Of a stretch of DNA of 64,000 nt, positions 3,724 to 50,772 are shown in pieces. The notes below the pieces were generated by a model. That model ran no database searches and had not been told where the DNA came from. It saw only the letters and a list, made by a program, of their open reading frames with translations. Position 1 is the stretch's first letter; every line of letters starts with the position of its first letter. The translations under genes were made by a program, and so were the position numbers. Origin of the DNA: a virus; the IMG/VR virus record IMGVR_UViG_3300042197_003333, positions 1 through 64,000 of that record; one strand, written 5' to 3'.

Positions 3724-4881
3724 TCATTCAACCATTACCTTGAAACCTTTTCCTGAATCATAAACATAAATTTTATTTCTTGTGATTCCTTTGTTATATA
3801 CATCTCTAATTCTATCTAAAGAAAAGGAGATGGATTTTGAACTTGGGACTTGCCAATTTGAGTAAAGGATTTTTTCTTTGATTCTATCTATGTTAAGGTT
3901 CTCAACCATTGATAATTCAAATAGAGCTTTTAGATAATATCTTTTTCCAACTTCTTGTTTAGATATTTTATCAATATACTCGTTAAGAAAATTTAATTTC
4001 TCCAAAATCCATAGAGTATCAGTATCATCAAGTTCTAATTTACCATCTTTAAACATTTGATAAGTCATTCTTGTTCTGTCTGATTTTCCATTCATAACAT
4101 AGAATATAATCTCATGCTCAAATTTATCTCCATGGCTCATTTTAAGTCTTCGGTAATTTACATAACTCTTAACACCGAGAGTTGCCTTTGACATCATAAA
4201 TGCGGTGATGTCCCAAACTTGAGAGGCTGTATTAAGTAGTTCTACATCCCCAAGAGATTTTTCCAAAATGTTCATGTCAAAATCTTCCCATATTGTGTAT
4301 GTTATAGGTAGACCAAGTTCCTTAAGAACTTCATATCTATGTTGTCCATCAATAATTTTAAGTGGTCCTCCTTTTTTTGGGTTTGGGTCAAATCCAACTA
4401 AGAGACATGAGGGTTTTAGATGTTTTGTTTTTATAGATTCACGAATTCTATTGAGATTTGCCTTAACAAGGTCCCTATTCGCTTTTATCATTCCAAACAA
4501 GTCATAGTTTGTTGTCTCATAGATTTTTGAATACTCTGATGATTGGTTAATCACATCATCCAATGTAAACTTGGAATTATCAGGATAATCTCCATAAATA
4601 ACATAAGGGATAGTCAAATTCAAATCTTTGTAAGTTTGAAATCTTTGTTGCCCATCTACAATTCTGAAAATAGCTTCAGATGTTGGGTCAGGGTCATACA
4701 CCACGATTAATGGTGAAAACTTGTAATTTTCATAATCTTCATCAATTTCTTTTTTAATCCTTTCTAAATTTTCTTTTGAAAGATGTCTTACTGTTGAATT
4801 TGAGTTGTAAAACAAGTCATAATCTGTTGTCTCTTTGATTTGTGAGAATTGAGACAAATTCTCATTTAAAATTGTATTCAT
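3724..4881 (-). CDS. tandem ParB/sulfiredoxin-like domain protein
   Basis: A 385-residue protein with two copies of a ParB-like N-terminal fold. Each begins with a similar phrase (ETTDYDLF near residue 18, ETTNYDLF near 120) and ends in the hallmark 'IVDGQQRFQTYKDL' or 'IIDGQHRYEVLKELGLPI'. The remaining 180 residues are mostly helical. In ParB-like proteins the D/E-G-x-x-R motif binds nucleotide; family members range from DNA partition proteins to nucleases and host-takeover factors. Its role here is unknown. A host-type promoter (4968-4999) lies about 90 bases upstream of the start. Confidence 0.7.
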   Translation of the reverse strand: MNTILNENLSQFSQIKETTDYDLFYNSNSTVRHLSKENLERIKKEIDEDYENYKFSPLIVVYDPDPTSEAIFRIVDGQQRFQTYKDLNLTIPYVIYGDYPDNSKFTLDDVINQSSEYSKIYETTNYDLFGMIKANRDLVKANLNRIRESIKTKHLKPSCLLVGFDPNPKKGGPLKIIDGQHRYEVLKELGLPITYTIWEDFDMNILEKSLGDVELLNTASQVWDITAFMMSKATLGVKSYVNYRRLKMSHGDKFEHEIIFYVMNGKSDRTRMTYQMFKDGKLELDDTDTLWILEKLNFLNEYIDKISKQEVGKRYYLKALFELSMVENLNIDRIKEKILYSNWQVPSSKSISFSLDRIRDVYNKGITRNKIYVYDSGKGFKVMVE

Positions 4882-5490: not shown

Positions 5491-6729
5491 ATGGGTAAAA
5501 GATTAATTATAACAGAAGAAGAAAGAAAAAGAATTCTTAATTTATATGAACAACGTATTTCGGATTTACCTCAAAATCAACAAACATATACAGGACCAAA
5601 ACCAAATATCGGAACCCCAAAAACCAAAGACTTAAGAACCACACTTTCACCACAACAACAGCAACAATATAAGGATATGACAAGAGGGCAAAAAGATTTG
5701 TTCAAAATATATTATGGCGGAAACAAAGAAATAAGTCCAATTGGAAAGGACCCTAGTTTGGTTGAAAAAGTTAGATTAATATTTCCTAAAGCTGATTGGG
5801 AAAAAATAGGTTTACGTTTTTTTAGTATGTTTAACATATTCTCTGGATATTTTACGTCGTTGGCTGATGCTTTGAAACTTGTTGGTAATTTAATTAACAA
5901 AGGAGTCAAAACGAAAGAACTTGTAATTGGTTCTCATGGTGGAGGAGAGCAATTATTGATGACAAAATCTGGTGAAAATTTTAGATTTGACAATTCATTT
6001 TTGGAAAGTATTAAAGAAATTGTGACTCCATCTACAAAAGTTTTTTTCACGGCATGTCATGGAGCGGATGACTTGGAAATGTTAAAAGATGCTGCCGAAA
6101 AGTTGGGAGTTGGAGCATATGCGTCCAAGGGGGTATATAACTATATAACAAATGAAAGCGAAAAAGGTTTTTATTGGTGTTCACCCAATTCTTATAATGT
6201 ACCAAGGGATTCTAAACCTGAAGAACCATTGAATCCTATTGAAGAACAAAAAAAATCTGCACAAGTACAGGTTAGGTTTTTATCTAAAGAAAAACCAACT
6301 GAAATTAACTATACAATAACTACGGAAATTTTTGGAATTCCTATTAAAACTATAAAAAAATTTAATTTTGAATCTAAAAATTATGGAGTGAGTAGTATTA
6401 ACAAGGGTGAATTTTTGATTGAGGGATGGATAGACATTAATTATGATTTGGAGGAATATATAGGTGGATACACTGATAACCCTCCAGCGAATCAAGACGC
6501 ATTAGCCAAATCCTGGTACAATCAAAGCAAGAAAACGCCAAATATGGAAGAATTTTTAGGTAATAAGTTCGTAAATGGAGAAATTAAAATAGAACTGGAT
6601 GGAGCTGATATAAAGACACTGAAACCTTTTTCATTACCTTTATCAGTAGATGATGATTTTTTATTGGAAAACAATCTTTGTAGAAAAGTTGAAAGTTCAC
6701 CGGTTAGTTGGTTTGAACCCATCAGTTAA
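5491..6729 (+). CDS. tagged protein with caspase/CHAT-like His-Cys motifs
   Basis: A 412-residue protein. Residues 1-20 (MGKRLIITEEERKRILNLYE) belong to the shared N-terminal module and end in LYE, a possible prohead-protease site. A central domain (about 110-225) has 'LVIGSHGGGEQ' and, 40 residues later, 'KVFFTACHGADDLEML': the His and Cys positions expected of a clan CD (caspase, CHAT or DUF4347-like) dyad, each after a hydrophobic strand. The C-terminal 180 residues are beta-rich and unrecognised. By its tag I infer a head-packaged protein; a protease role is plausible but not shown. Confidence 0.6.
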   Translation: MGKRLIITEEERKRILNLYEQRISDLPQNQQTYTGPKPNIGTPKTKDLRTTLSPQQQQQYKDMTRGQKDLFKIYYGGNKEISPIGKDPSLVEKVRLIFPKADWEKIGLRFFSMFNIFSGYFTSLADALKLVGNLINKGVKTKELVIGSHGGGEQLLMTKSGENFRFDNSFLESIKEIVTPSTKVFFTACHGADDLEMLKDAAEKLGVGAYASKGVYNYITNESEKGFYWCSPNSYNVPRDSKPEEPLNPIEEQKKSAQVQVRFLSKEKPTEINYTITTEIFGIPIKTIKKFNFESKNYGVSSINKGEFLIEGWIDINYDLEEYIGGYTDNPPANQDALAKSWYNQSKKTPNMEEFLGNKFVNGEIKIELDGADIKTLKPFSLPLSVDDDFLLENNLCRKVESSPVSWFEPIS

Positions 6730-12138: not shown

Positions 12139-13233
12139 ATGAAAAAAACATTTCTTTCTTTCTTCGCATCGTTGTTGAGCATTTTCGCAATCGGGCAACC
12201 ACTTAATTTTAATCAGATAATGAGAGTAACTATTATAGATACTAATCTGACCGCTTCCTGTGATTTCCAAGTTTATTTTACATATTCGTTGCCGGATGAT
12301 TCTGTATCATACACCACTAATTGCGTTTTTGATTCGGTAGATATTGATTTGACTGAATCTGAAACATTTTATACATGTACAGTTGAGCATTTTGATGTTG
12401 ATACTATTGAATCTTACAATTGGACAATTTGTATTGATGCTATTTTTCCTTGCACTCCATCCGCCGATACGTGTAGAAGTGGTATACTTTATCCAAATAT
12501 GGGTTCTGGAAGTATATATGGACAAATTTTTTATGTTGATGATAATTTAATTGATTACGACCAAGATGGATACCCTTCAAACTTTGATTGTGACGATAAT
12601 AATCCTATTGTATACCCAACTGCGCCAGAACTATGTGATGGTATTGACAACAATTGTGATGGTATTTCAGATTCATTAAATTACCCAACAATTGACATGC
12701 ACTTTGTTGATGACTCACTTGTTGAGGACACCTCATCAATTTATGTGGTTTGTCAAGTAGAGGGGGGTGATTCATTTATGTGGGATTTTAATGGACAAAT
12801 GGTTGATTCACTTTATACTGAAGTGTCATTCGTAGATACTGGTCTTTATACCATTTGTCTTTACGCTTCGGCTAACGGAGGGTGTGTGACTGACTCTTGT
12901 CTATCTTTTGAAATTGATTCAATGGGTTCGTGGTCGCCAAACGGAATGCCAACTGCATATACATTATATGTTGTACCTGAATATATTACAAATTCGGTAT
13001 CTGAAATAACAAATACTCTTGTCGTGTATCCAAATCCTGTATCAAACAACATCACAATTCAAAACAATAATTCGGTTAATATTCAAATTACATCTTTATC
13101 TGGCGGTTTGGTTTATTCACAAAAACATAATGGATTAATCAATATTAATGTTGAAGACCTATCTAGTGGAATTTATATTCTTAATATGAATGATGGTCTG
13201 ACAAATAAAGTTTGTAGGTTTGTAAAACAATAA
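12139..13233 (+). CDS. secreted protein with type IX secretion C-terminal domain
   Basis: A 364-residue protein. Residues 1-19 are a signal peptide (MKKTFLSFFASLLSIFAIG). Residues about 147-184 hold a MopE-like putative metal-binding unit (DQDGYPSNFDCDDNN ... ELCDGIDNNCDGISD). A 70-residue immunoglobulin-like region follows. The last 75 residues match the Por/T9SS sorting domain: 'VVYPNPVSNNITI', then 'SLSGGLVYSQ', then 'LSSGIYILNM'. Proteins of this type cross the outer membrane of Bacteroidota by the host's T9SS and are attached to the surface or released. It has its own host-type promoter and a terminator, so it behaves as a single-gene unit, possibly acquired from a host. Confidence 0.85.
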   Translation: MKKTFLSFFASLLSIFAIGQPLNFNQIMRVTIIDTNLTASCDFQVYFTYSLPDDSVSYTTNCVFDSVDIDLTESETFYTCTVEHFDVDTIESYNWTICIDAIFPCTPSADTCRSGILYPNMGSGSIYGQIFYVDDNLIDYDQDGYPSNFDCDDNNPIVYPTAPELCDGIDNNCDGISDSLNYPTIDMHFVDDSLVEDTSSIYVVCQVEGGDSFMWDFNGQMVDSLYTEVSFVDTGLYTICLYASANGGCVTDSCLSFEIDSMGSWSPNGMPTAYTLYVVPEYITNSVSEITNTLVVYPNPVSNNITIQNNNSVNIQITSLSGGLVYSQKHNGLININVEDLSSGIYILNMNDGLTNKVCRFVKQ

Positions 13234-17346: not shown

Positions 17347-18063
17347 ATGAAACAACTTTTTAAAATAGACGAATCGGAAAAAAGACGAATTCTAGAAATG
17401 CATGAAAATGCGACAAGAAGAAATTATTTGATGGAACAGGGAACTCCTGCACCTGCAACAACAGGAAACCAAAAAACACTGCCAAAAAAAGAAACCACAT
17501 TTAATACAATCACTGATTTTTACGGTATAGATATGCCAGTTAAAACTAGCTTATTGAAAATGAAATCTGCGGACGATATAAATAAATTAACAAGTATGAT
17601 GCCACAAAACCAAGAATTAGTAGATGAGATAAATAGTAAAGTTAAAGCTATGGGTTCTTTAGGTAAAGAAACTACAATTGGATTTCCTTCGGCAACTGAT
17701 GAGAATACAAAAAATTTAACATATAAGTATTTAAATGTTTTAATGACGGCCCCAATATGGAATATTGTTACTAGAATATGTGGTGAAGTTGTTAATCTAC
17801 CCGAAGATACGGGTAAAGCTATGGCTTGTACTTCAGGTATTAATTATGAGGTCTATAAAAAAGCTATGGATTTTTTGCTTACAAATAACCAATGGAAAAA
17901 CATATCAGAAGATGCTTTAGCGTCGTTCAAAGATGCTTATAATATGTTAGGGACTGGAGTTAAAAATGATTCTGGTTACCAAAAAATATTTGTACAAATT
18001 CAAAAAGCTCCACTCATCACAGCCCTATCTTCAATTGCAAATGAAAAATATCAATCTTTTTAA
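17347..18063 (+). CDS. tagged protein (duplicated cassette, copy 1)
   Basis: A 238-residue protein. Its first 33 codons and short leader (about 17337-17444) are identical base for base with 19179-19286: MKQLFKIDESEKRRILEMHE ... LMEQGTPAP, a tag variant ending in LME then Gln. After a Pro/Thr/Lys linker the body (DMPVKTSLLKMKSADDINKL onward) is unrelated to the partner at 19189. It therefore shows the tag as a movable 5' module. TATTTAT box 17322-17328. Confidence 0.75.
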   Translation: MKQLFKIDESEKRRILEMHENATRRNYLMEQGTPAPATTGNQKTLPKKETTFNTITDFYGIDMPVKTSLLKMKSADDINKLTSMMPQNQELVDEINSKVKAMGSLGKETTIGFPSATDENTKNLTYKYLNVLMTAPIWNIVTRICGEVVNLPEDTGKAMACTSGINYEVYKKAMDFLLTNNQWKNISEDALASFKDAYNMLGTGVKNDSGYQKIFVQIQKAPLITALSSIANEKYQSF

Positions 18064-19188: not shown

Positions 19189-19875
19189 ATGAAACAACTT
19201 TTTAAAATAGACGAATCGGAAAAAAGACGAATTCTAGAAATGCATGAAAATGCGACAAGAAGAAATTATTTGATGGAACAGGGAACACCCGCACCTAACA
19301 CTCCACAACCGACATCTCCACCAGCAAGACAGGAAGTACAACCTTCGGGAAATGTTGTAAATGGTAAAACTTATAAAATTCAAAATATTACGGATGACAG
19401 TTCATTATACTTATTTACTAATTTTGGTTTACTAAATACTGAGACAGCAGGAACCCCTTTTGGCCCAAGGAGTCATAGTAACTTAGGTTGGATGGCATCG
19501 ACAGTAGGTTCTACAGTTGGGAATGAAGTTTATAAATTAGAACAATCAAATAAATTTCATGAAAAAGACCTTGGAACTGAAAAATTTGAACAGTTAAAAA
19601 AACAAGCGGAAACCGATGTTATGAAAATTGTAAATGAGTTAGATATTATTGCACAAAATTATACTTTACCTGAACTATGTAATAAAACAGAAAAACCTCT
19701 ACCTCAAGGAGTAAGCTCAAAAGCTTTAGCTATTGCTCAACAAAGAGTAGGGCCCGATATGGGACGACTCAGTTTAAATTGGTGTGGTCAACAAAAAACA
19801 GGAACAAACGCTAAAAATAAAAGAGAACAAATTCAAAAAGATAGAGAGTTTGCACAACAAAGAGCAAAGGCTTAA
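19189..19875 (+). CDS. tagged protein (duplicated cassette, copy 2)
   Basis: A 228-residue protein sharing its leader and first 33 codons exactly with 17347-18063, then a different Pro-rich linker and body ('NGKTYKIQNITDDSSLYLFTNFGLLN ... LGWMASTVGSTVG'), ending in a charged helix (KNKREQIQKDREFAQQRAKA). Predicted cut after LME. TATTTAT box 19165-19171; terminator directly after. Confidence 0.75.
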   Translation: MKQLFKIDESEKRRILEMHENATRRNYLMEQGTPAPNTPQPTSPPARQEVQPSGNVVNGKTYKIQNITDDSSLYLFTNFGLLNTETAGTPFGPRSHSNLGWMASTVGSTVGNEVYKLEQSNKFHEKDLGTEKFEQLKKQAETDVMKIVNELDIIAQNYTLPELCNKTEKPLPQGVSSKALAIAQQRVGPDMGRLSLNWCGQQKTGTNAKNKREQIQKDREFAQQRAKA

Positions 19876-40678: not shown

Positions 40679-41434
40679 TTAAACAAAATCTTTTAAATCC
40701 ATATCTCTAATCTCATAGCGTCTTGTAGATATGTTAGGATTGGTATTAAAATCGCCAAGAATATACTCATCCGCACTATAATCTTCAAACTCACCTGACT
40801 CTCCCGATATATAATATGTTGTAAATGTCCATGCGCTAAAATCATCACCATCTTTTAACACGTCTCCTTCATCCATTAGTTCAAGTTCTTTAAATAAACT
40901 TGTGTCAATTGAAAAATATTCTGTTTGTGAAACTATATGTTGTGAATAATCTTCAATTTCTCCGTCGCCGCCACAATTTTGACAAGTCATTTCTCCGTCG
41001 CCGCCACAATTTCCACATTGAGTTTTTCCATCTCCTTCGCAATTGTCACAATCTTCACCATCAATTTTTCCATCTCCATCACATTGACCACAATTCATAT
41101 TTCCTATTCCATCACATTCATCACACGAAGAGTAACCACTTCCACCACATTCATCACAATCTGAGTAAGGTCTATCGTCACTAATATATATAACTGAAAA
41201 AGAAAACAAATTGGCTAAACATTCTTCATAAGCTGGTGCTAATTCATTTCCTCTTTTATAATTTAAAAGTAAAAAAACTAAATAAACAACTTCTTCAGGT
41301 TTAAGTGATTCTCTTATTTGTTTTAAAAATCTGTCTTTTTGCAAAAAACTAAAAATTGATTGCGAGGTCTCTGAAACATCTTGTAACTTTAATCTTGGCC
41401 CTATCAAATTGGCCAACCTAATTAATTTTTCCAT
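40679..41434 (-). CDS. protein with six CxxCxGxG zinc repeats
   Basis: A 251-residue protein starting MEKLIRLANLIGPRLKLQDV. Residues 97-167 contain six CxxCxGxG repeats (CDECGGSG, CDECDGIG, CGQCDGDG, CDNCEGDG, CGNCGGDG, CQNCGGDG), the motif of the DnaJ zinc domain, which has four. There is no J-domain. The C-terminal 80 residues are acidic and beta-rich. Six motifs could hold three zinc ions. A chaperone-like or RNA-binding role is possible. It shares a palindromic promoter region with the divergent peptidase gene. Confidence 0.7.
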   Translation of the reverse strand: MEKLIRLANLIGPRLKLQDVSETSQSIFSFLQKDRFLKQIRESLKPEEVVYLVFLLLNYKRGNELAPAYEECLANLFSFSVIYISDDRPYSDCDECGGSGYSSCDECDGIGNMNCGQCDGDGKIDGEDCDNCEGDGKTQCGNCGGDGEMTCQNCGGDGEIEDYSQHIVSQTEYFSIDTSLFKELELMDEGDVLKDGDDFSAWTFTTYYISGESGEFEDYSADEYILGDFNTNPNISTRRYEIRDMDLKDFV

Positions 41435-41450
41435 ATATTTATATAAATAT
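41435..41450. promoter_or_regulatory. palindromic TATTTAT box between divergent genes
   Basis: ATATTTATATAAATAT is a perfect 16-base palindrome, presenting the TATTTAT box to both the minus-strand gene starting at 41434 and the plus-strand gene starting at 41463. Confidence 0.55.
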
Positions 41451-41462
41451 AATTATCTTAAA

Positions 41463-42848
41463 ATGATTAATAAAAAACTTATTTCTGAAATTAATAGAAA
41501 TAAAGAGTTAATGGGTATTGAATTATTGAACGAAACTCTTGATTTTGTTCACGTTGCTGGCGGAAAAAAAGCAAGAATTACTTCACCATTTGGACCAAGA
41601 GGAGGAAGTATACATTATGGTCTTGATTTGGGAGTTCCTTCTGGAACAAAAGTGATTGCTCCTGCTGATGGCACTATTACTGATGCGGTGATTAGAAAAG
41701 ACGCCTGTGGGGGAACATTAAAAATTGACCACGGAAAAATTGACGGAGATGATTATGATACAAGATTTTGTCATTGCAAAGAATTTTTAGTAAATATCGG
41801 AGATAAAGTCACTCAGGGGCAAGTTATTGCATACTCTGGTGGAGGAGCAAAAGACATAGGAAGAGGACGTTCTACAGGCGCCCATATTCATTTTGAATTA
41901 TATAAAAATGGAACACCCATCAACCCTAAAAGTTATTATGATAATTTTGTTGAATTAGATGGAATGTCTCAAATTCAAACAAAAAAGATAAATAAAAAAA
42001 TAGAGTCATTTGATGACATACCTGAAGATTTAAAAAAGATATATTCAAAATTAGAATCAAAATCAGGTAGAAAATATAAAATAGAAAAAGAAAATATTGA
42101 TTTTGAATTTAAAAATGAAGGGGGAATTTATAAAGACGCTGGAAGTGTAAATTCTGAGGCCAAAAAACAAATTATGAAAATGATTGAAGATATGATTATA
42201 ATTTTTCCAGAGTTAAAAAGTGAAACAAAACTTGTTTCAGATTATAGAGGATACGAAAAACAAATTTCGGCTTTTTTAAATAATATAGGCCAATATGCTA
42301 CAACTCTTGACAGGCAAAAATGGTCGGCGTTACCTGGATTTTCACAACACCATACAGGAAAGGCTTTTGATATTTTTAGTGTTGAAAAAAGTTGGTGGAA
42401 ATCAAGACCTGAAATAAAAAAATGGGTTGAAGAAAATTGTAAAAATTATGGATTTGAAGTGTCTTATCCCACTGATAGGGGTTCAAATTTTAGAGGAGCC
42501 GAACCTTGGCATTTGAAATATGTTTCAGGAGCAAAAATTGATTCTTCAGACTTTTTATCTAAAGAAGTGATTGACAATTCAGAAAACAACGCAACATATT
42601 CAGAAAAAAAAGATGTAGAAAAACTTTTAGATAAAATTGGTTTAAAACAATTTGCCGATTCGGAAAGTTTGGATGATGTTGTTCAAAAAGTAAAAGATAT
42701 GGTTCCTGACGAGGTTATAAATAAAACTCCTGAAGGTGATATTGAAATTTTTGGGTATTCTTTATCTGATTTATGGGATAACGCAAAAAGTATATTTGAA
42801 CAACGATTAAATGAAGATATTAATAAAATGAAAAAACCCCTAAAATAA
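41463..42848 (+). CDS. tagged dual peptidase: M23 plus M15
   Basis: A 461-residue protein. Tag: MINKKLISEINRNKELMGIE then LLNE (cut at 24). Residues 40-145 are a LytM/M23 zinc endopeptidase: 'PFGPRGGSIHYGLDLGVPSG' (HxxxD) and 'RSTGAHIHFELYKNG' (HxH). Residues 240-360 are an M15/VanY-type peptidase: 'WSALPGFSQHHTGKAFDIFS' (HxxxxxxD) and 'AEPWHLKYV' (WH). Both cut peptidoglycan peptides. It could be the lysin or, given the tag, a virion enzyme used on entry. A terminator overlaps its end. Confidence 0.85.
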   Translation: MINKKLISEINRNKELMGIELLNETLDFVHVAGGKKARITSPFGPRGGSIHYGLDLGVPSGTKVIAPADGTITDAVIRKDACGGTLKIDHGKIDGDDYDTRFCHCKEFLVNIGDKVTQGQVIAYSGGGAKDIGRGRSTGAHIHFELYKNGTPINPKSYYDNFVELDGMSQIQTKKINKKIESFDDIPEDLKKIYSKLESKSGRKYKIEKENIDFEFKNEGGIYKDAGSVNSEAKKQIMKMIEDMIIIFPELKSETKLVSDYRGYEKQISAFLNNIGQYATTLDRQKWSALPGFSQHHTGKAFDIFSVEKSWWKSRPEIKKWVEENCKNYGFEVSYPTDRGSNFRGAEPWHLKYVSGAKIDSSDFLSKEVIDNSENNATYSEKKDVEKLLDKIGLKQFADSESLDDVVQKVKDMVPDEVINKTPEGDIEIFGYSLSDLWDNAKSIFEQRLNEDINKMKKPLK

Positions 42849-42861: not shown

Positions 42862-43246
42862 TGGTGGAGGCGGGGGTAGTCGAAAACCCCGTCCAGATAC
42901 TCATAAAAGATAGGACTACACGCTTAGGTCAATAATTGTTCTAATTATTCCGAAATATTTCGTTTTTATTTCCCTTCCACACGAACAAAAAAGGGTTTGT
43001 TTCTTTTCGGGTAGAAACCACACCACAGTACGAGCTTCTGTTCCAAGGTTATATGCTTACCGACCCGTTTCGTAGGCTAATCCCAGATTAGGCTACTGTT
43101 ACATCAGCAGTACGGATTAAACCGATTGTCTGAAGTTTTGCGAAAGTTTCGCCATTTACGTTTGTTACCATAGTTTAAAGTGATAGGAAACGTCTCACTG
43201 CGTGCCCCGGCTCCCAAGATGTAAATGTCAAATCCAGCTCGCCCCC
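42862..43246 (-). ncRNA. ssrA: tmRNA (transfer-messenger RNA)
   Basis: A 385-base RNA rescuing stalled ribosomes. The 5' end GGGGGCGAGCTGGATTTGAC and 3' end GGACGGGGTTTTCGACT ... CCGCCTCCACCA make the tRNA-like domain: acceptor GGGGGCG pairs with CGCCTCC, a T-arm, and CCA is encoded. The tag frame reads GETFAKLQT ... RTADVTVA then TAA (43154-43089), with the stop inside a helix (GTAGCCTAATC/GATTAGCCTAC, helix 5-like). The tag opens like Bacteroidota tags (GE-) but is about 21 residues and does not end in ALAA. One-piece form. Downstream pseudoknots were not modelled. Confidence 0.93.
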
Positions 43247-45225: not shown

Positions 45226-45248
45226 AAAAAGGGGGATTATTCCCCCTT
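45224..45248. terminator. bidirectional terminator
   Basis: AAAAAGGGGGAT TATT CCCCCTTTG, between convergent peptidase and Clp genes. Confidence 0.7.
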
Positions 45249-46490
45249 TGTTTTTCTTGCCCTTTTTGTCTTCTTATATTCCGAGTAAAGCACTTTTTCA
45301 TCTTCAATTCTCATAACGTAAAGTGTTTCTTCTTTAAGATTTTTTCTTAAAACTTCGTCGGAAATAAAATCTTCAATCTTTTCTTGAATTGCCCGTTTAA
45401 GCGGTCTTGCTCCATATACCTCATCAAACCCAACTTTTGAAATAAAGTCAATAACTGATTCATCAAAAGTAATATTAAGTTTCAACCCCTCAAGTCTTGA
45501 CTGCAATTTGTTAATTTCAACTTTAACAATCTTTTTAACATCTTCATCGTTTAATGTATTAAAAACAATTACCTCATCAATACGATTTATAAATTCGGGG
45601 GCAAAATGATTTTTTAATTCTTTATTCAACATTTGTTTTTTAACCTCTTGGTCAGCATATACGTTGTTTGTTTTGGAAAATCCAATCCCCGCTCCAAAAT
45701 CTTGCATTTTTTTGACCCCAATATTTGATGTCATAATGATAAGACAATTTTTAAAGTTAATTTTTCTTCCAAAACTATCTGTCATATAACCTTCATCCAA
45801 AAGTTGGAGGAGTGATGAAAAAATATCACGATGAGCCTTTTCAACTTCATCAAAAAGAACAACCGAATATGGTTTTGTCTTAACCTGTTCTGTTAATTGA
45901 CCCCCTTCTTCATATCCAACATAACCTGGAGGTGAACCAATCAATCTTGAAACCGAGTGTTTTTCTTGAAATTCACTCATATCAACCCTAATTAAATTTT
46001 CTTCACTTCCAAATATCTGTTTTGCCAATTCTTTCGCTAAAAGAGTATTGTGAGATAAAATACCATTAGTATAATATCTTCTATTAGAACCTTCTTTTAA
46101 TTCTAAATCAAACATAACTTCTTCGTACCCTAAATTAGTTATTGATACAACTTCACATTCTTCTAATTTATCATCACCAAATACACATATTTTATCACCA
46201 ACATTTAAATTCTTCACAAAAACTTCTTCCATATTGTCAATATAAAAAACAATATGATTATCGGCGCATTTGAGTTCTTTACCATCAGATAATTTAAGGT
46301 GATAAACCTCATAAGGTATTGTTTCATGTAATGCCTCAATATCAACAAAACCGGTGTCGGTTAATATTTCATAATCTGATATTTTAGTTGTTTTAGTAAA
46401 TTTTTTTAATGAATCTAATTCGTGTTTATCAAATAAAAAAACATTATCTAATTTCTCAATTCGTTTTTGTATTTCTTCAATTCCATTCAT
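45237..46490 (-). CDS. clpC: Clp ATPase, C-terminal piece, fused to split-intein C-half 2
   Basis: A 417-residue protein. Residues 1-148 are an intein C-half (ending YYTNGILSHN). The extein begins at TLLAKELAKQIFG, completing Walker A of the second AAA+ domain (GSTGVGK + T), then Walker B 'SVVLFDEVEKAHRDIFSSLL', 'SFGRKINFKNCLIIMTSNIG' (sensor 1), and 'VYGARPLKRAIQ' (sensor 2), so the second ATPase domain of a ClpC/ClpB unfoldase. An IGF/L-type ClpP-binding loop is not evident. It must be joined to the 47759-49270 product by trans-splicing. Start codon lies two bases after the upstream endonuclease stop. Confidence 0.9.
   Translation of the reverse strand: MNGIEEIQKRIEKLDNVFLFDKHELDSLKKFTKTTKISDYEILTDTGFVDIEALHETIPYEVYHLKLSDGKELKCADNHIVFYIDNMEEVFVKNLNVGDKICVFGDDKLEECEVVSITNLGYEEVMFDLELKEGSNRRYYTNGILSHNTLLAKELAKQIFGSEENLIRVDMSEFQEKHSVSRLIGSPPGYVGYEEGGQLTEQVKTKPYSVVLFDEVEKAHRDIFSSLLQLLDEGYMTDSFGRKINFKNCLIIMTSNIGVKKMQDFGAGIGFSKTNNVYADQEVKKQMLNKELKNHFAPEFINRIDEVIVFNTLNDEDVKKIVKVEINKLQSRLEGLKLNITFDESVIDFISKVGFDEVYGARPLKRAIQEKIEDFISDEVLRKNLKEETLYVMRIEDEKVLYSEYKKTKRARKTKGE
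46047..46490 (-). other. split-intein C-half 2
   Basis: 148 residues. Block B-like 'DGKELKCADNHIVFY', then 'NVGDKICVFG', and block F/G 'YEEVMFDLELKEGSNRRYYT' ending GILSHN with Thr as the +1 residue. Its partner N-half is at 47762-47854. Confidence 0.85.
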
Positions 46491-46491
46491 A

Positions 46492-47712
46492 TCATTTGTT
46501 TTTTAAAAATTTTATACATTTATTTATTATCTCTTGCTTATTCCCCCACCTATATTCAGAGTCCCATATTACTAAAACTTCAAAACCACAATTTTTGGCC
46601 ATGCATAATTTTAATTTATCCTTATCCCAAATTTCTTGTGCAGTTATGTTTTGTTTAAATGGATTTGGGTAATCTGTTGATTTATATTTTGTTGGGTTTG
46701 CGTGAAATGAATCTCCATGAAACTCAATTATTTTTTTATTAATAGTGTCAGTAAAATCGTATAACCAAACTCCGCCATTTTCTTTTTCTAACTTGAATTC
46801 TTTATTATGTGTTGCAAAATAAATTTTATCTTTATCAACAATATCATATTTTTCTAAAAGTTTATAAAATAAATCTTGTGAAATTTTAGAAAACCCAATA
46901 ACCATACTACCATTTTTTATCAAAGAATTTAACCATTTATCCTGTCTTTCATTAAATCTTTTTTTACCTTGTTCTTCACCATATTTTTTTATACATTTTT
47001 CTAATGAAAAAGTTGATTGGTGTTTAGATACTTTTTCTTTTGCTTCTTCTTCAGATAATCCAGTTTTTGTCCAATATTTAATATTAGAAGGTATTAATCT
47101 TTTTTGGAAATCTACTTGTTTAGCCGATTTTTTTTGATTTTTAGAAATAATTTTTTTAGCCTCAAGTTCTGTTTTACCTTTATTAATCCAAAATTCAACT
47201 TTTGAAGGAGTTAAACAAATTTTATTTATTTCTTCTTCAGTATATCCTTTTTCTATTAGCATTTTTTTAGATTTACCATGATGAGTTTTAACACATTTAG
47301 AAGATTTTTGCTGTTGTTTTGAAATTTCTTTAGTCGCTAATTCTTTTGGGTAACCTTTATTTATCCAATACTCTTCACATAAACGATTTCTTTTTTTAAT
47401 TTCATAATTTCTGTTTTCTAATTCTTTTAAAGCTTCTTTTTCATCCCAACCACGCTCAATAAAATATTCTATTTTGCCCCATTTTTTAGTTTTAAAGCTA
47501 TAATTTTTTACCAACCACCCTCTCATTAATGAATATGAAATAGTACCATCTTGTTCTTCTAATTTATTCATCAAAGATTGCATTTCTTTTTTTATTTTTT
47601 CATTATTGTAACGTATGTTCTTATCTAATTTTAAAACATAATTTTTAAATGTTTCTAAATCTGGAAAAATTTCGTTTATTTCTTTAGTTCCTTTGTTTGT
47701 TTTTATTTTCAT
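46492..47712 (-). CDS. Vsr-like (EDxHD type) homing endonuclease between intein halves 2
   Basis: A 406-residue protein. The C-terminal domain has 'KKIIEFHGDSFHANPTKYKS' and 'TAQEIWDKDKLKLCMAKNCG' then 'FEVLVIWDSEYR', the pattern of the Vsr-like endonucleases found with fractured, split-intein genes. Before it are three copies of a W-x-x-K-G...EEA...IS..Q module (about residues 118-230), probably DNA-binding, and 'CIKKYGEEQGKKRFNERQDK'. It sits exactly between the two halves of intein 2 and carries its own TATTTAT box (47734-47728). Confidence 0.85.
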   Translation of the reverse strand: MKIKTNKGTKEINEIFPDLETFKNYVLKLDKNIRYNNEKIKKEMQSLMNKLEEQDGTISYSLMRGWLVKNYSFKTKKWGKIEYFIERGWDEKEALKELENRNYEIKKRNRLCEEYWINKGYPKELATKEISKQQQKSSKCVKTHHGKSKKMLIEKGYTEEEINKICLTPSKVEFWINKGKTELEAKKIISKNQKKSAKQVDFQKRLIPSNIKYWTKTGLSEEEAKEKVSKHQSTFSLEKCIKKYGEEQGKKRFNERQDKWLNSLIKNGSMVIGFSKISQDLFYKLLEKYDIVDKDKIYFATHNKEFKLEKENGGVWLYDFTDTINKKIIEFHGDSFHANPTKYKSTDYPNPFKQNITAQEIWDKDKLKLCMAKNCGFEVLVIWDSEYRWGNKQEIINKCIKFLKNK

Positions 47713-47758
47713 AATATCTATTTTATAATAAATATCGTAAAGTTTAAAAAAGTTAGGA

Positions 47759-49270
47759 CTAATTGGTGTCGGTAATGATATTTTTTATTTTTATTGTCTT
47801 TATTTCACCAGTAAACTTGTTTCTAACTATAATTTCAGTATCTTCACAAACACATTTTCCAACACCTGTTGAACCCAAAAATATGAATGAACCAATTGGT
47901 TTATTTGGGTCTTTAATACCCAACCTATTTCTTCTTATTGATTTTGATATTGTTGTGATTGCTTCAATTTGGCCTATAACTGATTTTGACAAATTATCTT
48001 CCATATTTATCAAATTTTCTGTATCATCAACTGATAATTTGGTAACTGGAATTTTTGTCATTATTGAAACAACATCATAAACAAGTTCAATTGAAATGTC
48101 TCTTCTTTTTGTTAATAAATCTTGTTCAAATTTGGTTCTTTCAGCATCTAATTGACTCAAAATCTTTTTTTCCCTGTCTCTTAATTGTGCTGCCATTTCA
48201 TAATTTTGCCTTTTGACAACAAGTAATTTTTCTTCCCTAATTTTTTGTGATTCTTTCTTTAATTCCTCAATAATTTCGGGATTTTTAACATCAACTTGAG
48301 CTCTTGCTCCAACTTCGTCCAAAATATCAAAAGCCTTATCAGGAAATTCTCTATCTGTTATATATCTGTCGGCCAAATCAACACATGCGTTTAAAATTTC
48401 ATCTGTAAAATTAACCTTGTGATGAATTTCGTATTTTTCTTTCAAATTTTGAAGAATTTGAAGAGTTTCTTCTTTTGTTGATGGTGAAACAATTACTTTT
48501 TGGAACCTCCTGTCAAGAGCCCCGTCTTTTTCAATATTTTTCTTAAATTCATCAAGTGTTGTTGCTCCAATGCACTGAATTTCACCTCTTGATAATGCGG
48601 GTTTTAGAATATTTGATGCGTCAAGTGAACCAGATGCGTTTCCAGCCCCAACAAGGGTATGAATTTCGTCAATAAAAAGAACTACATTTGGATTTACCGT
48701 AATTTCGTCAATTATAACCTTTAATCTTTCTTCAAATTGACCCCTATATTTTGTTCCCGCAACAATTGAATTTAAATCAAGTGATAAAATTCTTTTGTCA
48801 ACCAAATTTCTTGGGCAATCTCCTTGAAATATTTTCATTGCAAGACCCTCAACTATCGCCGTCTTTCCGCAATTATGGGAAACAACTCCATTTGATATAT
48901 ATTTTCTTTCATCGTCTAAAACTTCTAAATCATAGGTATTATTAATTCCTATTTCAGTATATTCTATAACATCAACCAATTCATTATTTTCAGTCCAAAC
49001 AAATTCACCTTCTGTAATGTTACCTAAACTTAACCAACAAGAATTATTTTCAAAAACAACATTTGGATTTAAAGAATTTTTAGAAACTTCAACCAAATGT
49101 TCGTCAGAACCTGATAATTCTAAACCATTTGATAGTTTAATTCTAATACAATTTTTATTGTTTTTTTTGTATAAATTACCAATTAATTTATATCCTGATG
49201 GTGTTTTAATTTTGTAAGTCCCACCTTTTTTTTCAACAAGGTCAAAAAAATCTTCTATTTTTATTTTCAT
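47759..49270 (-). CDS. clpC: Clp ATPase, middle piece, with intein halves at both ends
   Basis: A 503-residue protein in three parts. Residues 1-133: intein C-half 1 (ends ISNGVVSHN). Residues 134-472: extein, starting CGKTAIVEGLAMKI (rest of the first Walker A), Walker B 'NVVLFIDEIHTLVGAGNASG', arginine-finger region 'DRRFQKVIVSPSTKEETLQI', a UVR-like coil 'KRQNYEMAAQLRDREKKILS' typical of ClpC, and the lead to the second AAA+ domain ending GSTGVGK. Residues 473-503: intein N-half 2. It needs splicing at both ends. Its start overlaps the stop of the upstream endonuclease (ATGA). Confidence 0.92.
   Translation of the reverse strand: MKIKIEDFFDLVEKKGGTYKIKTPSGYKLIGNLYKKNNKNCIRIKLSNGLELSGSDEHLVEVSKNSLNPNVVFENNSCWLSLGNITEGEFVWTENNELVDVIEYTEIGINNTYDLEVLDDERKYISNGVVSHNCGKTAIVEGLAMKIFQGDCPRNLVDKRILSLDLNSIVAGTKYRGQFEERLKVIIDEITVNPNVVLFIDEIHTLVGAGNASGSLDASNILKPALSRGEIQCIGATTLDEFKKNIEKDGALDRRFQKVIVSPSTKEETLQILQNLKEKYEIHHKVNFTDEILNACVDLADRYITDREFPDKAFDILDEVGARAQVDVKNPEIIEELKKESQKIREEKLLVVKRQNYEMAAQLRDREKKILSQLDAERTKFEQDLLTKRRDISIELVYDVVSIMTKIPVTKLSVDDTENLINMEDNLSKSVIGQIEAITTISKSIRRNRLGIKDPNKPIGSFIFLGSTGVGKCVCEDTEIIVRNKFTGEIKTIKIKNIITDTN
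47762..47854 (-). other. split-intein N-half 2 (31 residues)
   Basis: CVCEDTEIIVRNKFTGEIKT... to the stop: intein block A with Cys1 directly after extein GVGK. Very short compared with the usual 90-100-residue N-halves. Confidence 0.85.
48872..49270 (-). other. split-intein C-half 1 (133 residues)
   Basis: Starts MKIKIEDFFDLVEKKGG; block B-like 'SNGLELSGSDEHLVEV'; block F 'NNTYDLEVLDDERKYISNGV'; block G VVSHN with Cys as the +1 residue (extein CGKTA). Confidence 0.88.
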
Positions 49271-50439
49271 AATACATTTAATATTTTATCATATAGTTTA
49301 GTAAAATCTGTCTCATAAATCAATTTAATTTTGTTTTCATTACAAAATAAAATTTTTTTATTCATTTTATCGTAATATTTAGATTGTTTTTCGTCTAATT
49401 TGTTAAAATTTTTTCCGTCTAAAATACCAAAATATTCAATATACACATCGTAATCAGGTAGATAAAAATCACATTTAAAATGCGAATTCGGGTACCCAAT
49501 CTCATATGAATAATTAATTTTTTTAAATTCAAATAAAAGACAAAGTTTATATTCTTTAACGCTTTTAAATCTAATCCCATTATGATATACAGGGGTACCA
49601 TATAAGCCACACTTTAACTCATAAGGAAATGATGAAAAAAAAGTTTTTTTAATTGTGTCTTTATTAGTATTGTACCTATTTGAAATGATTGAGCTATTAA
49701 TGTAAGGGATAATATCTGAAATAGTTTTAACGTCTATTTTTGTTAAAACACACAAAACAAATTTTGAAATAGAATCACAATCAATACATTCTGTTATAAT
49801 TTTTTTTGTACTATCTAAAAAAGATGTTCTTACTATTAAATCTTTTATTGGTACTTTATCAAAAGAATATGAGTTCTTTTTTTTATTAATTTCATTAATT
49901 TTATTATTTGTGTGAAGACTATTAATCCATTTTTTTTGTCTTTTTTGGAAAATTTCAACTCCTTCCTCTTCACCATATTTTTGAATACAAATTTTTTTGC
50001 TAAAAGTTTTTTGACTTTCAGAAATTAAATTTTTTGCCTCTTCAGAACTAAATCCTTTTTTTACCCAATATTCAATTCTTTTAGGGGATTTGTCATAAAA
50101 TTTTTCAGGATTTATTTTCTTTTTGTCTGAAAGAATTTTAGAATTTTTTTTCTGTTGCTCACTAATAAATTGAGTTATTTCTGATTTTTCCCATCCCATC
50201 ATAAATAAAAAGTCTTCATTATATACACTTTCAGGGTAATTAACTATTTGTCTATACCACTTCTTAATTTCCTTAAAATTAATTTGAGTCGTATTTTTAA
50301 TTTGATTATTAACTTTATCAATACAAGAGTCGGGTATTTTTTTAAAGAACTTAAAAAAATTATTATTTAAAATAAAATTTTCTAAATCAATATGATTTGA
50401 TATAGTTAATAATTTTTTTCTTTTAAAGAAAACATTCAT
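49267..50439 (-). CDS. PD-(D/E)xK-like homing endonuclease between intein halves 1
   Basis: A 390-residue protein. C-terminal domain: 'IRFKSVKEYKLCLLFEFKKI' (Glu), 'SHFKCDFYLPDYDVYIEYFG' (D...E..G), then a Lys, a restriction-enzyme-like core. N-terminal half carries the same W-x-x-K-G...EEA...IS..Q module ('YWVKKGFSSEEAKNLISESQ') and 'CIQKYGEEEGVEIFQKRQKK' as the endonuclease at 46492, though the nuclease domains differ. TATTTAT box at 50478-50472, right after the stop of the N-piece. Confidence 0.75.
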   Translation of the reverse strand: MNVFFKRKKLLTISNHIDLENFILNNNFFKFFKKIPDSCIDKVNNQIKNTTQINFKEIKKWYRQIVNYPESVYNEDFLFMMGWEKSEITQFISEQQKKNSKILSDKKKINPEKFYDKSPKRIEYWVKKGFSSEEAKNLISESQKTFSKKICIQKYGEEEGVEIFQKRQKKWINSLHTNNKINEINKKKNSYSFDKVPIKDLIVRTSFLDSTKKIITECIDCDSISKFVLCVLTKIDVKTISDIIPYINSSIISNRYNTNKDTIKKTFFSSFPYELKCGLYGTPVYHNGIRFKSVKEYKLCLLFEFKKINYSYEIGYPNSHFKCDFYLPDYDVYIEYFGILDGKNFNKLDEKQSKYYDKMNKKILFCNENKIKLIYETDFTKLYDKILNVL

Positions 50440-50478
50440 AGTTAATCAGGTTAAAGTAATTACCTTTACCTATAAATA

Positions 50479-50772
50479 TCAGATAGTTTCAATATTATGG
50501 GTATTTACAACTGAAATTTTTTCAACTTCAATAATAGTGTCCCCAAGTACGCAACCCGGCTCACCAATAATAATTGGGTTATTTTTTTTCCTTCTTGATA
50601 AAATTTGAGCGATTCTCAAAATTTCTTGTTCTCGTCCAACAACTGGGTCAAGTTTTCCTTCTTCTGCCAATTTAATTAAGTCCCTTGAAAAATTATCAAG
50701 TACAGGGGTTTGACCTTCTTGTGTTCTTTGGTTTCCACCACCTTTTTTTCCTTCGTCTGGAGTTTCTGTCAT
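50479..50772 (-). CDS. clpC: Clp ATPase, N-terminal piece, with split-intein N-half 1
   Basis: A 97-residue protein. Residues 1-73: a Gly/Gln-rich start, then '[20 protein letters not shown]' and '[20 protein letters not shown]', the start of the first AAA+ domain, ending [10 protein letters not shown], the first half of Walker A. Residues 74-97: intein N-half 1 from Cys. The usual Clp N-domain is missing, so the phage enzyme begins directly with the ATPase core. Joined in trans to the product of 47759-49270. Confidence 0.9.
50482..50553 (-). other. split-intein N-half 1 (24 residues)
   Basis: [20 protein letters not shown] then IETI and stop: block A with Cys1 and the D-T-x-I motif. Partner C-half at 48872-49270. 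Confidence 0.85.

Follow-up and report, generated by a model that had tools for sequence, protein, structure and literature searches.

Does the 412-residue gene near the start of this viral DNA encode a cysteine protease that travels in the phage head and acts in the infected cell? The preliminary description had proposed a tagged, caspase- or CHAT-like protein, delivered by the virion, that could disarm host defence proteins on entry. The window analysed covers positions 1 to 64,000 of a virus record (G000) that is 80,245 bases long. The open reading frame was found exactly as first described, with an ATG start and with both quoted motifs, IGSHGGGEQ and FFTACHGADD, inside it. Its parts are listed in Table 1.

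Table 1. Features of the candidate peptidase gene (positions in the window).
Feature	Position	Strand	Basis
Whole gene, tagged caspase-fold cysteine peptidase candidate, 412 aa	5491..6729	+	ORF, homologues, model
N-terminal capsid-targeting sequence MGKRLIITEEERKRILNLYE, residues 1-20; predicted cut after LYE, mature protein from Gln21	5491..5550	+	T4 gp21 motif L/I-X-E (PMC9026906)
Low-confidence linker, residues 21-85	5551..5745	+	pLDDT mostly <56
Caspase-fold (clan CD-like) core, residues 86-240	5746..6210	+	Alignment, core model, structure searches
G-S-H-G motif, putative catalytic His149 (codon 5935-5937)	5929..5940	+	Invariant in 9/9 homologues
F-T-A-C-H-G-A motif, putative catalytic Cys189 (codon 6055-6057)	6046..6066	+	F, T, C, G, A invariant in 9/9
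Cys230, further invariant cysteine, last core strand	6178..6180	+	Homologue alignment
C-terminal domain, residues 241-412, beta-rich, conserved LCxKxxxxPxSW motif at end	6211..6726	+	Alignment, full-length model

Eight further homologues were identified on other IMG/VR contigs (L082/L092, L083, L084, L085, L087 with its equal copy L088, L089, L090 and L091), by scanning IMG/VR with the core domain and with alignments of it, and by searching phage records that share the terminase. Core identity between members was 24-63%. Sixteen positions were invariant in all nine sequences: P99, G147, S148, H149, G150, L171, K175, V184, F186, T187, C189, G191, A192, L195, Y210 and C230. The two motifs place His149 and Cys189 40 residues apart, each closing a predicted strand (residues 141-148 and 178-186 of the full model, or 56-62 and 93-101 by core-model numbering). 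Among the nine homologues the His-Cys spacing was 40-48, a range into which the spacings of caspases and legumain also fall. Retention of GSHG and F-T-x-C-x-G-A in cores this divergent is, as judged from the alignment, beyond chance. In alignment and models alike, His-Gly ends one strand and Cys ends the next core strand, as in clan CD peptidases. The original placement of the motifs behind strands, at clan CD-type spacing, therefore held.

In T4, the prohead protease gp21 cleaves after L/I-X-E, and capsid-targeting sequences, N-terminal propeptides of 10-19 residues, bring internal proteins into the head, to be injected later (PMC9026906). The gene studied here begins with a short N-terminal stretch ending in such a site (LYE/Q, residues 18-20). 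All nine homologues carry [ILV]xE[QNS] within the first 30 residues (LYEQ, INEQ, LKEQ, VNEQ, INES, INEQ, LTEQ, ISEQ and LYEQ), with a chance probability of about 1.8e-12 at the rate seen in protein bodies, and the word 'tagged' was thus well chosen. The same record encodes an S77 (T4 gp21-type) prohead protease (G000:66327-66758, E 2.4e-26) and a gp23-type capsid protein (E 3e-63) with FLINE/A near its N-terminus. Both head genes also occur in G045, G046 and G047, the other large carrier records, and in G028 (22 kb); neither was found in G043 (36.7 kb) or G044 (70 kb), which may be fragments.

Simple patterns describing the tag classes matched the starts of 55/419 genes (about 13%, three genomes) as against 1/1312 internal Met positions, a contrast made somewhat flattering by the patterns having been written after the data were seen. 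G044 and G046 use a different tag type (MKNNVKRFGQFINE, MKKLYNFKTWEKINES), and it is this local type that their caspase-like proteins bear; the pattern for these is looser, matching 13/311 internal Met positions. Because the general [ILVM]xE site statistic is weak by itself (2.4-6 fold), the argument rests on the tag classes together with the nine homologues. An identical 31-residue tag, MKQLFKIDESEKRRILEMHENATRRNYLMEQ, was seen on two genes with differing bodies, at 17347-18063 and 19189-19875, which at the sequence level is direct evidence of tag copying. In L121 (70-4551, G047), seven consecutive ORFs share the near-identical tag M[KR][IV]II[NS]E.Q[YL][RK]QIIE[SN] and look like one family of injected proteins arranged in tandem.

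Other tagged proteins included an M23+VanY peptidase (a cell-wall enzyme with both domains, at 41409-42848), phage lysozymes, an SLT transglycosylase, peptidoglycan-binding domains, PPK2, a RimK-like ATP-grasp enzyme and a GDSL lipase. The tagged cargo is thus of both envelope and cytoplasmic types, so the place of action of the protease could be either. It may be a peptidase ejected into the periplasm, where it would aid entry alongside the tagged lysozymes, M23/VanY enzyme and transglycosylase. The richness of the cargo in cell-wall enzymes and peptidoglycan-binding domains would suit this, as would a weak PG_binding_1 match (E 0.13) in one of the nine homologues, probably L084, at its C-terminus by reading. 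However, most homologues carry no peptidoglycan-binding domain, and PPK2 and the RimK-like enzyme are cytoplasmic in type. Action on the envelope appears unlikely on this balance.

The distribution of the gene was patchy. Carrier records had one copy each. Of the 42 records related through the terminase, some of them fragments, the majority had none, the 294 kb and 223 kb records among them. Searches with tblastn, using four members against 50,697 isolate phages and one member against 72,556 plasmids, returned nothing credible, and a pattern scan of GTDB contigs with the core alignment found no relatives. A second scan of genome contigs, with the PPK2 gene as query and aimed at host genomes, was likewise without success, and further viral scans started from divergent members gave no new members. 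The gene appears to be carried by a number of giant phages, from lakes and from other habitats. Compared with the 430 kb phage G046, this phage showed 24.1% identity in the capsid protein and 47.5% in the caspase core; compared with G028, the values were 76.5% and 28.3%. These identities run in opposite directions, which indicates that the history of the domain differs from that of the head genes. The sequence pattern is that of traded cargo refitted with local tags.

These data also bear on whether the protein acts on the phage itself, as an accessory head-maturation protease or a processor of other packaged cargo. The tag would put it in the prohead beside the S77 protease, and well-conserved phage peptidases mostly process virion proteins (PMC7824862). 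Set against this, the gene is missing from the large sister records and from most of the related ones, fragments included, and has been exchanged between distant phages in a way that head genes have not. A role confined to phage proteins therefore seems quite improbable.

The fold of the core was predicted with AlphaFold2 from the nine-row core alignment (pLDDT 81, pTM 0.79). The model comprised a strand (8-12), a helix (17-27), a short strand (34-35), a helix (39-51), a strand (56-62) immediately before SHG, a hairpin (73-75/78-80), a helix (84-92), a strand (93-101) immediately before TAC, helices (105-120) and two further strands (124-127 and 142-145). The predicted topology, b1-a1-b2-a2-b3(His)-hairpin-a3-b4(Cys)-a4-b5-b6, matches the layout of clan CD peptidases. 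Absence of a caspase-like sheet, or a wide separation of His and Cys, had been named beforehand as grounds for dropping the proposal, and the predicted topology, judged by its order of strands and helices, gave no such grounds. The full-length model gave an uninformative Foldseek result, most matches (TEAD etc., TM about 0.13) being to the C-terminal beta domain.

With the core model, the best Foldseek match among BFVD viral models was an uncharacterised Myoviridae protein (E 1e-3, prob 1.00), followed by a peptidase C14 of Dasosvirus, a clostripain of Tupanvirus and pithovirus and ascovirus caspases; eight of the first 16 matches were of this kind by name. No match in either structure search went below E 0.001, and in the PDB list clan CD members were interspersed with receiver domains and dehydrogenases, which are built on a comparable alpha/beta plan. 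Clan CD members among the first 26 included the C11 protease 6n9j (prob 0.91-0.93), the Raptor caspase-like domain and CED-3. In a profile search of PDB sequences, caspase-3 (6wi4) came first at E 0.2 and 0.27, below significance, with SHG aligned over THG, FFTAC over FFQAC, and both catalytic residues in register. The 6wi4 chain appeared again with L083 as a single query (E 0.13, not significant); L090 alone and L084 alone gave no caspase-3 match against the PDB sequences. Each of these structure and sequence matches is weak, and jointly they point one way, to clan CD. By our estimate a caspase-like fold is very likely.

The core could instead have a different three-layer alpha/beta architecture (receiver- or flavodoxin-like) in which the His-Cys pair arose by chance. 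Response-regulator domains do occur among the PDB matches with similar TM-scores, but receiver domains are set apart from the core model by its hairpin after the His strand and its extra last strand b6. GSHG and TxCxGA are also invariant at the strand ends, and the viral matches are rich in caspases; such a fold has only a small chance of being the right one. Clan CD-like folds include pseudo-enzymes, and a caspase-like binding or scaffolding module without protease activity, as the Raptor match might suggest, is very unlikely given that, across all nine members, conservation is highest at the two catalytic residues and immediately around them.

Profile libraries (Pfam, PHROGs, NCBIfam and PADLOC) gave no family match. 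For Peptidase C14, no Pfam or NCBIfam match was found across the nine members. Pfam likewise detected no CHAT (PF12770), Peptidase C11 (PF03415) or DUF4347 match among them, and the CHAT and C11 models were negative in six phage records in which the controls were positive. One candidate, Pfam Phage_tail_C_2 at residues 290-347 (E 0.0026), was below the cut-off and in one member only, and was rejected. Membership in a named clan CD family (C14, C11, CHAT or DUF4347) is therefore not supported by sequence. The initial 'caspase/CHAT-like' interpretation was supported in part: the caspase-like predicted fold, the conserved His/Cys dyad and the N-terminal capsid-targeting tag stood, while assignment to CHAT, DUF4347 or C14 fell away in the profile scans and genome searches.

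The resemblance to known peptidases is correspondingly partial. Caspases and metacaspases (C14) have in common with the protein the predicted fold order, the HG and C motifs, the FF[TQ]AC block and the spacing; the protein differs in being tagged, phage-borne and unmatched by C14 profiles. Thr, not Gln, stands two residues before Cys here, so there is no sign of a caspase Asp pocket. Clostripain-like C11 provided the top-ranked clan CD structural match in the PDB, in spite of the negative PF03415 result. CHAT and DUF4347 proteins have the same strand-SHG and strand-C pattern, again with no profile match here.

Several other genes stood out. At 12139-13233 lies a phage gene with a C-terminal type IX secretion sorting domain (Por_Secre_tail, E 3.6e-13) and a MopE metal-binding motif; the sorting domain indicates that the host is probably a member of the Bacteroidota, and the sequence suggests export of this phage protein to the host surface. 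Adjoining the caspase-like gene, 3724-4881 (-) encodes a protein whose two 'DGQ[QH]R' halves are alike and whose GmrSD_N-like domain scores 33.0 bits, just short of the Pfam cut-off of 33.2. A ClpA/B-like ATPase at 45237-50772 (-) lies in three ORFs (50479-50772, 47759-49270 and 45237-46490), split at both P-loops. From the sequence, the breaks look like two split inteins (...VVSHN/CGKT; GSTGVGK/CVCEDT..., ...ILSHN/TLLAKE), each gap holds a free-standing ORF, perhaps an endonuclease, and the layout resembles the 'fractured gene' split-intein arrangement of environmental DNA. A T4-type portal protein (L103 1821-4718, G000 61821-64718, past the window end; Portal_T4 E 9.8e-68) is interrupted by an intein with a LAGLIDADG-like domain, and a tmRNA gene was predicted at 42862-43246 (-).

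Taken together, we read the product, with a probability of about 0.6, as a caspase-fold cysteine peptidase that a jumbo phage with a T4-type head carries as one of its internal head proteins, and that is injected and cleaves host protein(s) early. The 20-residue N-terminal tag would dock the precursor in the prohead core, and the phage's own S77 prohead protease would cleave after Leu-Tyr-Glu20. The released protein would remain in the head and be ejected with the DNA at infection, when His149 and Cys189 would serve to cut one or more host proteins. Backed by computation are the conserved dyad, the predicted fold, the tag, the S77 protease with the gp23-type capsid protein, and the repeated fusion of the domain to different tags; packaging, tag cleavage, injection and proteolysis are what we infer. 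Packaging in the head is highly probable, and an active protease is probable. A target in the host is modestly favoured. The target is the least certain part: host defence proteins are plausible by analogy, since the injected Ip1-3 of T4 are anti-defence proteins, and remain a tentative choice that we would expect to prove wrong rather than right.

T4 Ip1, Ip2 and Ip3 are injected, each blocking one GmrSD type (PMC12373910). They resemble the present protein in having a short N-terminal tag cut after L/I-x-E, a gp21-type protease in the genome, and accessory, variable genes. They are inhibitors of GmrSD restriction enzymes and, to our knowledge, not enzymes themselves, whereas the product here is a putative protease, and the tags here are of other types (LIITEEER, EELNRIKE, ITKNQF). 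In the jumbo phage phiKZ, too, inner-body and ejection proteins are packaged in the head and processed after Glu, but the motif is S/A-x-E and the protein families are different. A survey of 224 jumbo phages suggested host proteins as the substrates of those phage peptidases whose distribution is patchy, and mentioned neither caspases nor CHAT (PMC7824862); a 2026 review makes no mention of caspases (PMC13282480). Our search of openly licensed papers found no description of a caspase-fold protease among injected head proteins, and an earlier description elsewhere is possible.

Injected head proteins as such are already known, among them Ip1-3 and Alt of T4 and the inner body of phiKZ, and as one more of this kind a head-delivered caspase-fold protease is the best reading. 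Should it be true, the virion brings in a regulatory-type protease that is active before transcription, and the tag offers a simple route, needing nothing but sequence, to a list of the proteins that uncultured phages inject. More speculatively, and with the odds against it, there may be a mobile family of head-packaged caspase-fold proteases, traded among jumbo phages that supply their own capsid tags, and injected to cleave host defence or cell-death proteins before phage gene expression.
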